From contig SVBB01000004.1 of the NCBI GenBank assembly GCA_015059105.1, forward strand, positions 69,144-133,143: a stretch of 64,000 bases of DNA, given 5' to 3'. The position numbers were made by a program, and so were the translations under genes. The notes below the pieces were generated by a model. The model was not told the DNA's origin. It did not search any database and worked only from the letters and a program-made list of their open reading frames with translations. Origin of the DNA: Erysipelotrichaceae bacterium (GTDB lineage Bacteria; Bacillota_I; Bacilli_A; RFN20; CAG-826). Of the stretch, positions 43,077-63,722 are shown piece by piece (within the stretch, counting starts at the first letter, position 1; each line of letters starts with the position of its first letter).

Positions 43077-43180
43077 AATGTCCCTCCTTACTTCTTAAAT
43101 TCACTAAGTACTCGCTATTAAGGTAAACCTTAAGTTTTTAATGACCTTCTCTAGGCGGTTGTAGCTAGTGAGGCGACAAC
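43077..43180 (-). promoter_or_regulatory. L21 leader, candidate autoregulatory element
   Basis: The ~100-nt 5' leader of rplU contains complementary segments that can fold into hairpins (for example CTTAAGGTTTACCTTAA around 43110-43135 and GCCGTTG-like arms near 43155-43175). Position and size fit the Firmicute L21 leader family, in which a ribosomal protein is thought to feed back on the operon. I did not fit it to the covariance model, so the family name is tentative. Confidence 0.55.
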
Positions 43181-47306: not shown

Positions 47307-47505
47307 AAAATAAAAGCGTCCTATTTCTAAGGACGCATTGTTTTGCGCGGTACCACCTTAGTTCTAGATATAAATATCTAGCCCTTAATTAGATATATCC
47401 TCCTAAGCGACCCTTCATCCTCTCAATCAGTCGAACTTTCACCTATATCGACTCTCTAAGTGATTGAGAACTGGATTACTTCCTCTTAATCAACGGACTA
47501 TATTA
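47307..47505 (-). promoter_or_regulatory. T-box riboswitch of valS, specifier GUC
   Basis: The T-box sequence AAGGTGGTACCGCGC is at 47359-47345 on the minus strand. The terminator is GCGTCC/GGACGC (47336-47331 with 47321-47316) plus a T tract; the antiterminator can form by CTAAGG (47361-47356) with CCTTAG (47332-47327). Stem I carries AGAGAG and GGTGAAA loop features; the specifier is best read as GUC (47411-47409), a Val codon. Binding of uncharged tRNA-Val would favour antitermination. Confidence 0.93.
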
Positions 47506-60973: not shown

Positions 60974-61138
60974 TGAAAAATGCTTCCTCGTAATTTGGAA
61001 GCCTCTTTCTACAATATAAATTAGAGAATAACACAAACGGTCTATTGACTAATTTAATTCGTAGTCCTAGATTATACGGTCTAGGGTAGAGACGACCCAC
61101 CAATTAGGGAAATATACGAATCATCGATTTTCATCGAC
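60974..61138 (-). promoter_or_regulatory. Purine (guanine-class) riboswitch with terminator
   Basis: Aptamer at 61121-61057 (minus strand). P1 ATTCGTA/TACGAAT; J2/3 TCTCTACC; P3 CTAGA/TCTAG around CCGTATAA; J3/1 GAC, with C at 61064 in the specificity position, so guanine/hypoxanthine type. P2 is short (CCC/GGG around an 8-nt loop), compared with ~5 bp in Bacillus xpt. Terminator: GCTTCC/GGAAGC with T tract (61002-60976). A GAAA-capped hairpin (61122-61138) precedes the aptamer. Confidence 0.88.
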
Positions 61139-61144
61139 ACACAC

Positions 61145-62161: not shown

Positions 62162-63361
62162 ATGAAATCGATTAAAGAAATTTTCGTTGTTGGTCATGGA
62201 CCATCCTCATCTCACACGATGGGGCCAGCAAACGCGACAGATTATATTCTTTCTAAATATCAAAATATCGAGGCAGTTAAAGTTATTTTACATGGTTCTT
62301 TAGCCTTAACTGGGAAAGGCCATTTAACTGATTATATCATCGATTTAAAACTCAAAAATGTCCCCCATAAAATCATTTTTGATATGGAGAATAAGAAATT
62401 ACCACATCCAAACACGATGGACTTTATCATCACTACTAAGGATGGGGAATTTAATGAAAGAATTCTTTCTATCGGTGGAGGAAGTATCAAGAAAGTTGAT
62501 GAGGAATGTCTTGCCACTATTGATACATATCCACATAATACCTTAAAAGATATTCTTAATTACTGTTCTATTAACTGCATATCATTAAGTGACTATGTCC
62601 TTAAATATGAAGGGGAAGATATTAAAAAATACCTTTCTCACATCATTCATGTGATGACCACGACTGTTGTTAAAGGTATTAAAAAAGAAGGGGAACTACC
62701 TGGAGAATTACATATCAAAAGAAAAGCCAGAGATATGTATGATCGTTGGAGACATCTTGAGGATCCAATTTCTAAAAGAAATTATGAATTTATGATGGCT
62801 ATTGCGGCAACTGCAACTAGTGAAGAAAATGCTTCAGGTGGTATAGTAGTCATCGCCCCAACATGTGGTAGTTCTGGTGTTATTCCAGGAGTGCTCGCGT
62901 ATTTATTTGCAAGAAAAACTCCTTACGAAGATATCATTAAAGGACTAATGGTTGCTGGACTAATCGGTCAGCTTTGTAAAACAAATGGTTCCATTTCAGG
63001 AGCGGAAGCAGGTTGCCAAGCCGAAATCGGCGTCGCTTGTGCGATGGGAGCGGCTCTTATCGCTGCTGCTAGAGGGATGGAAAATCGAAAAATCGCCCAA
63101 TGTGCCGAAATCGCTTTAGAGCATTCTTTGGGTCTTACATGCGATCCAGTAAAAGGGTATGTACAAATTCCATGTATTGAAAGATGCGCGATGTTCGCTT
63201 TAAAAGCCAAAAATGCCTTTACTTTATCTAGGCTCATTCCATCTGAATACGGCAAAATATCTTTTGATGATTCTGTTAAGACGATGTTATCTACTGGTAA
63301 AGATATTCCTTCCGGATATAAAGAAACTTCTAAAAAAGGCTTATCGAAACTATTTGAATAA
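62162..63361 (+). CDS. sdaA: L-serine ammonia-lyase, single-chain iron-sulfur type
   Basis: 399 aa. N-terminal beta-domain [13 protein letters not shown], then the alpha-domain with [49 protein letters not shown]: the three cysteines bind a [4Fe-4S] cluster that activates serine. Converts serine to pyruvate and ammonia. Shorter than the 454-aa E. coli form because of a trimmed beta domain. The stop codon lies in the A-run of a minus-strand terminator. No Shine-Dalgarno is obvious. Confidence 0.93.
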
Positions 63362-63534
63362 AAAAACATCTCCGTCGAGATGTTGTACGCCAAGCAGGCC
63401 AGCCTATTTATGGAAGCGACTGGAACGTTAGAGGTCATCTATTAGCTTCCCCCTGCATCGCTGTAGTGGTACTTAAACCATCCACCCTATGGCTAGGGTG
63501 CGCCGTGGTCGACAGCTGAATCTCCACCTTTGGC
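63360..63534 (-). ncRNA. Candidate free-standing structured RNA, ~175 nt, family unknown
   Basis: Minus-strand transcript predicted from a promoter at 63569-63541 (+1 near 63534) to an intrinsic terminator (AACATCTC-GACG-GAGATGTT then seven T, 63384-63360). Nested helices: GCCAA (63534-63530) closes with TTGGC (63393-63389); CAGCTGT/ACAGC (63516-63512 with 63464-63460); CACCCTA/TAGGGTG hairpin (63500-63494 with 63489-63483); TGGT/ACCA hairpin (63480-63477 with 63470-63467); GCAGG/CCTGC (63456-63452 with 63398-63394); GGAAGC/GCTTCC (63450-63445 with 63417-63412). The expected conserved motifs of SRP RNA, tmRNA, RNase P and 6S are absent. Confidence 0.6.
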
Positions 63535-63540
63535 AGTTTT

Positions 63541-63569
63541 ATTTTAATAAAGCATCACTATGTTATCAA
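63541..63569 (-). promoter_or_regulatory. Promoter of the candidate ncRNA
   Basis: TTGATA (63569-63564, 5 of 6), 17-bp spacer, TAAAAT (63546-63541, 5 of 6). The expected start, ~63534, is the first base of the closing helix. Confidence 0.55.
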
Positions 63570-63722
63570 CAAAAATTATATGTTGAATTAATAGAGAAAC
63601 TTAAAGAAGTTCTTCATAAGAATATCGATATCCGCTTACATATTGATAATAATCAATCTTTGTTAGAGAATGTACTTATAAAAGGAATCAAGATATATGC
63701 AAAAAGAAATTATCGAAACTGA
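63546..63722 (+). pseudogene. Possible remnant of a minimal nucleotidyltransferase gene, C-terminal part
   Basis: The frame reads LYVELIEKLKEVLHKNIDIR followed by LLENVLIKGIKIYAKRN, resembling the C-terminal segment of MNT-type nucleotidyltransferases (hydrophobic strand, then Ile-x-x-Gly-x-x-x-Tyr). No start codon with a ribosome binding site is present after 63541, and the 5' part overlaps the ncRNA antisense. It overlaps the next gene by 26 bp, as intact neighbours often do. Confidence 0.35.

Follow-up and report, generated by a model that had tools for sequence, protein, structure and literature searches.

Between sdaA and a GNAT gene, the 64,000-nt stretch of DNA analysed here (the window) carries a set of helices flanked by minus-strand expression signals, which raises the question of what RNA is made there and what it does. 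The initial annotation described a free-standing structured RNA with a promoter TTGATA-N17-TAAAAT starting transcription near 63534, a closing helix GCCAA/TTGGC, a stem of GCAGG/CCTGC over GGAAGC/GCTTCC, and a strong terminator. Each of these elements is present in the sequence (Table 1), and the description of an RNA with its own promoter and terminator is upheld by the sequence, by homologues and by covariation. The RNA starts at 63535/63534 on the minus strand, its gene is convergent with sdaA, and its terminator overlaps the end of sdaA on the opposite strand. All helices (P1, P2, P3, P4, P5 and P6) and the CAGC/GCUG kissing interaction are found in this copy.

Table 1 Parts of the window RNA and its expression signals
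Feature	Position	Strand	Basis or remark
-35 element TTGATA	63564..63569	-	Sequence; 17-nt spacing to -10
-10 element TAAAAT	63541..63546	-	Sequence; 5 nt ahead of RNA start, the usual family spacing
Orphan RNA gene of the long form, 148 nt including both P1 arms	63388..63535	-	Homologues and covariance model R2
P1 5' arm UGCCAA	63530..63535	-	Pairs with 63388-63393; compensatory changes
P1 3' arm UUGGCG	63388..63393	-	Pairs with 63530-63535; compensatory changes
P2 hairpin GUGG...CCAC, carrying the conserved AAAGGUGGA and CGACCACG	63505..63527	-	Near-invariant in family
Kissing strand CAGC, P2 loop	63515..63518	-	Partner GCUG 63400-63403
Kissing strand GCUG, within P4	63400..63403	-	Partner CAGC 63515-63518
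P3 hairpin CACCCU...AGGGUG	63483..63500	-	Compensatory changes
P4 5' arm GCAGG	63452..63456	-	Pairs with CCUGC 63394-63398; long-form comparison
P4 3' arm CCUGC	63394..63398	-	Pairs with GCAGG 63452-63456; long-form comparison
Long-form extension, P5 enclosing P6	63412..63450	-	Compensatory changes
P5 GGAAGC/GCUUCC	63445-63450 with 63412-63417	-	Compensatory changes in 2 pairs
P6 UAGA/UCUA	63438-63441 with 63429-63432	-	Compensatory changes in 3 of 4 pairs
Intrinsic terminator ACATCTC-GACG-GAGATGT and T-run	63360..63383	-	Sequence; predicted hairpin

The RNA had been left unassigned, and in part this stands: in the Rfam search that the initial annotation had suggested, the window copy has no match even at E<=10. 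An assignment to a family related to skipping-rope RNA is now proposed below. ARAGORN finds no tRNA, and with the blank Rfam search this sets aside tRNA, Y RNA and every other Rfam family; the branch once read as tRNA-like is in fact the P2 hairpin followed by the P3 hairpin. The suggested resemblance to bacterial Y RNAs fails on topology as well, as here P1 closes P2, P3 and P4, with a kissing helix between P2 and P4, a contact that the earlier description did not include. Elsewhere in the window, a T-box leader (47326-47502), a purine riboswitch (61042-61139) and an L21 leader (43097-43170), all on the minus strand, score above Rfam cut-offs.

The minimum free energy (MFE) z-score of the window RNA is only -1.3, and the MFE structure misses GCAGG/CCTGC. 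Energy alone thus does not prove the fold, and the case for it rests on comparative data. The RNA occurs in a short form of ~85-95 nt and a long form of ~130-150 nt, to which the window copy belongs, and a longer P2 is possible in both. Among 60 distinct short-form sequences, 95% of cells are paired and 20 of 26 pairs show compensatory change, with a covariation score of 0.464 versus 0.218 in shuffles (0 of 500 as high). This alignment was built with a model of the nested helices, so its pair counts are biased in favor of that model. The kissing helix that joins the P2 and P4 loops was no part of the model, and 4 of its 5 pairs covary. The long-form alignment (19 homologues including the window copy) was made with MAFFT using no structure, and in it 98.3% of cells are paired, compensatory changes occur in 14 of 35 pairs, and none of 500 shuffles reaches the covariation score. 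In P1, compensatory changes are seen in 6/6 pairs of the short form and 3/6 of the long form, while P2, like the kissing pairs of the long form, does not vary and is by itself uninformative. The search for homologues and covariation that had been proposed at the outset was positive for both forms.

The window RNA belongs, in its long form, to a bacterial RNA family that had not been catalogued before. Further copies turned up by nucleotide search on contigs C11 and C10 of this genome and in relatives, and R2, a covariance model made from seven RNAs of this family only, matches the window RNA over its full length (E=1.4e-10). R1, a 38-nt model of the 5' module, detected the RNA in at least 64 of the 224 genomes from this taxonomic family and in 13 of 35 genera, with up to six copies per genome; these are lower bounds, as copies with a P2 insert escape R1. 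R1 had no match in any of 55 further genomes, which belong to other families within the order. The genomes compared are mostly draft MAGs, and nearly every named contig with the RNA comes from a rumen or gut MAG under the label Erysipelotrichaceae, Bacillales or Bacilli. Close copies are absent from the phage, plasmid and IMG/VR collections searched. Pattern matches in Corynebacterium (L028), Alphaproteobacteria (L030), Peptococcaceae (L036), Alistipes (L038) and Paracoccus (L039) were rejected, as the rest of the RNA is missing; such matches outside the lineage look like chance.

Members of the family have their own expression signals. A TATAAT-like -10 box ends 5 nt before the modelled RNA start in 92 of 119 copies, and TATAAT is matched at five or more of its six positions in 105 of 119, compared with 16% of control positions. 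In 107 of 117 copies a terminator-like hairpin and T-run follow the RNA, a count made without a control, and some tandem copies (in L012, L016 and L021) have no intervening terminator. An inverted repeat, TCAATC-n-GATTGA, precedes the -10 box at ~240-282 of L005 and in the same place in L027, L033, L035, L040, L041, L045 and L056, which suggests a shared regulator. Highly divergent RNAs of the same topology are found beside divergent enzymes in genus g6 (L236 2723-2818 and L235 1851-1941, both minus strand). In two genomes, three cow-rumen-1 RNAs (RF02946) stand in tandem near family copies (L152 3130-3821 and L160 3102-3796).

In the sister species G001 (SdaA 91% identical), sdaA and the GNAT gene are kept, the intervening sequence is unrelated and the RNA was not found there. 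The motif was matched in none of 22 further sdaA neighborhoods either, and the window copy is therefore no ancestral fixture of this site. Between the RNA and the GNAT gene there is a C-terminal remnant of a nucleotidyltransferase-like (MNT/Polbeta) gene (window 63553-63722, plus strand; Polbeta E 0.006), possibly another decayed toxin-antitoxin piece. Within this genome, the C11 copy adjoins an enzyme gene (L188, 124 aa); no enzyme adjoins the C10 copy or that of the window, which are orphans.

Clustering of ORFs around the RNA copies revealed one family of ~120-aa proteins (cluster-0) directly 5' of many of them. These have weak PBECR3 and MuF_C matches; against Pfam PBECR3 the E values are 2e-4 to 9e-3, and the best score is 21.4 bits relative to a curated cut-off of 30. 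MuF-C is counted among the PBECR domains by Iyer et al. 2017 (PMC5512222), who describe this RNase-fold clade as metal-independent and its members as effectors that phages and conjugative elements use. The AlphaFold model of cluster-0 has a pLDDT of 90, and among viral structures just one match, to a polyvalent-protein domain protein, is significant; several MuF-C proteins come next at weaker E-values. Foldseek against the PDB gave no significant match; the ribonuclease toxin BrnT reached a probability of 0.75 (E 0.24). H49, H55, D61 and R90 are invariant in 28 enzyme sequences, and Thr/Ser is common in the last strand.

The RNA lies directly downstream at 63 of 65 checked places encoding the cluster-0 enzyme, with the motif within 60 nt at 61. 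The two exceptions are a broken enzyme gene near a contig end (G130:C3) and a weak R2 match in convergent orientation (G162:C3, E 0.04). A second, MuF_C-like protein family is encoded 70-122 nt upstream of six RNA copies, mostly at ~120 nt, and in L106 a clear PBECR4 gene (E=7e-19, 69.3 bits, cut-off 27) is found 23 nt upstream. The slot 5' of the RNA is thus occupied by three different PBECR-type families (PBECR3/MuF_C-like, MuF_C-like and PBECR4). Of 120 RNAs, 72 have a partner within 500 nt, 43 have none nearby, and five are near contig ends. This association is asymmetric: intact enzymes without the RNA are almost absent, while about a third of the RNAs have no enzyme, and the RNA is still present at 4 of 5 broken enzyme genes.

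Covariance-model searches in both directions tie the family to skipping-rope RNA (RF02924). The RF02924 model covers the C10 copy (the L003 RNA) from end to end at 21.7 bits, and likewise its best match in the family (G204:C4) at 31.3 bits (E 1e-5 per genome), below the gathering threshold of 36.7. In the opposite direction, R2 has genuine skipping-rope RNAs as its top matches and recovers their ends exactly (E 1e-5 to 0.09 over 45 kb); the weakest of these matches are not significant singly. Both kinds have a P1 closing three hairpins in the same order and with the same ends, a similar conserved segment (GAGAUG/GCGAU) ahead of P4, and stand-alone partner genes of PBECR type, which are PBECR3 for skipping-rope RNA. 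Complementarity between the P2 and P4 loops is also shared, cognate loops being the more complementary in RF02924 members (permutation p 1.5e-4, with loops chosen by eye). They differ in that the gathering threshold is not reached, the window copy itself having no RF02924 match at E<=10, and in that the window family has AAAGGUGGA/CGACCACG as core motifs, along with a long form that bears P5 and P6. Furthermore, the enzyme is encoded 5' or 3' of true skipping-rope RNAs, whereas it is almost always 5' in the window family.

Skipping-rope RNA occurs above cut-off in 7 of 344 genomes of the phylum, and PBECR3 in eight, as four stand-alone genes and four domains inside proteins of 513-2599 aa. All four stand-alone genes lie within ~200 nt of a skipping-rope RNA (two 5' and two 3' of it, two of the four being broken), and all four domains inside large proteins are in genomes without a skipping-rope match. 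The hypergeometric probability of this four-in-four co-occurrence is ~6e-8, adjacency not counted. The linked PBECR3 partners score 37.8-79 bits against a cut-off of 30. An hhalign comparison of these partners with cluster-0, in which one side had just two sequences, gave no significant match, and a single-sequence AlphaFold model of the L237 PBECR3 protein was unusable (pLDDT 40). An RF02924 match at G005:C6 was discarded because it lies inside a coding gene.

Other genuine skipping-rope RNAs have different surroundings. In phage structural operons (portal, minor capsid) they occur with no PBECR gene adjoining (L220/L223 in G185:C24, and L243 in G518:C5), where they are possible phage-carried antidotes. 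In G527:C4, two of them (L240 and L246) stand on either side of the gene for a 208-aa protein whose PemK/MazF-like match is very weak (E 0.11), and two more adjoin a broken PBECR3 gene on the same contig. In L238, ~500 nt separate a skipping-rope RNA from a SIR2-like gene downstream of it (PF13289; 2098-3084, plus strand), which may mark a defence island.

We consider it probable, at roughly 70%, that the window RNA is an orphan copy of a structured RNA antitoxin from a type III-like system with a predicted PBECR-fold ribonuclease. The excess of RNAs over enzymes, the RNAs kept beside broken enzymes, the separate promoter, the elaborate conserved fold and the lack of complementarity to the enzyme mRNA agree with this reading. 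We infer a mechanism in which the RNA, made from its own promoter immediately 3' of the small ribonuclease gene and folded as P1-(P2,P3,P4) locked by the kissing helix, would bind the ribonuclease directly and keep it inactive. If the RNA disappeared, for example upon phage attack or once the locus is lost, the enzyme would be released and could cleave RNAs of the cell. The window orphan may serve as a trans-acting antidote to the G000:C11 enzyme of the same genome or to enzymes brought in by mobile elements. Counting against this reading are the weak resemblance of cluster-0 to PBECR3, with non-significant hhalign and solved-structure matches, an enzyme-then-RNA order with a separate RNA promoter that is unlike classical type III systems, and the lack of an adjoining enzyme at the window copy itself.

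Rather than being inhibited by the RNA, the PBECR nuclease could require it as a cofactor or guide, the two forming an AbiF- or Cas13-like defence ribonucleoprotein. The tight linkage and elaborate conserved fold would suit such a role, for which AbiF-ncRNA systems, tied to the evolution of Cas13, are a precedent (PMC12373285). However, RNAs persist without an enzyme or beside broken ones and enzymes without the RNA are almost absent, which fits an antidote better, and no variable spacer-like region was noticed in the RNAs; we regard a cofactor as unlikely. Less likely still is a general housekeeping or riboswitch-like sRNA that neighbors PBECR genes through shared mobile islands. The patchy, multi-copy distribution and the many orphans are what this would predict, but spacing and order are fixed over 61 loci, three enzyme families share one slot, and the distant skipping-rope RNAs are independently linked to PBECR3.

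Post-transcriptional control of the enzyme gene by base pairing, as in a type I-like antitoxin, would agree with the adjacency and the separate promoter. The two genes are on the same strand, however, and in 8 of 8 pairs the duplex energy of RNA and enzyme mRNA is no better than in codon-shuffled controls (z -0.5 to +3.0), so that with no antisense complementarity such pairing is very improbable. A chance coincidence of promoter, hairpins and terminator, judged hard to credit from the start and favored only by the modest MFE z-score, is refuted by covariation and by homologues in at least 64 genomes.

Beyond the antitoxin reading, cells might keep free-standing RNAs against the PBECRs that phages and conjugative elements deliver in polyvalent proteins, and phages might carry skipping-rope RNAs as counter-antitoxins to host PBECRs, a speculative extension that we rate as rather unlikely. 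If true, it would be an RNA-based immunity with one RNA fold on both sides of the conflict. Skipping-rope RNA, too, looks like an antidote of this kind, and the antitoxin reading offers it a testable function. No function was found described for it: no paper in the open-access PMC literature searched joins 'skipping-rope' with 'toxin', and a prior description elsewhere is possible.

Also close among known systems are the type III toxin-antitoxin systems (ToxIN, CptIN, TenpIN/AbiQ), in which a small ribonuclease-fold protein is likewise linked to a pseudoknotted RNA. Classical members carry 34-50-nt RNA repeats ahead of the toxin gene with a terminator between (PMC5086642; PMC12373285). Here the RNA is instead a single unit of 85-175 nt, at most a few in tandem, and is usually downstream of the enzyme with its own -10 box and terminator, not upstream under one shared promoter. 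The putative toxin is PBECR/MuF-C-like, from its PBECR3, MuF_C and PBECR4 matches and the MuF-C and polyvalent-protein structural matches, and not of the ToxN/AbiQ family. As gene order and toxin fold both differ, we call the system type III-like and not a member of that type. The complementarity of RNA and toxin mRNA that defines type I systems is not found. The protein AbiF and its structured non-coding RNA (RF03085) are likewise arranged in a type III-like way (PMC12373285), but AbiF is a HEPN protein and its RNA consists of 33-37-nt motifs repeated upstream of the gene, neither of which matches here. The PBECR domains of polyvalent proteins share the ribonuclease-fold clade of the partner enzymes, and the passages on them in Iyer et al. 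2017 (PMC5512222) mention no RNA partner. PBECR ribonucleases would gain one, and RNA-antitoxin systems would, if this reading is true, be widened by a toxin of another fold and an RNA of new architecture.
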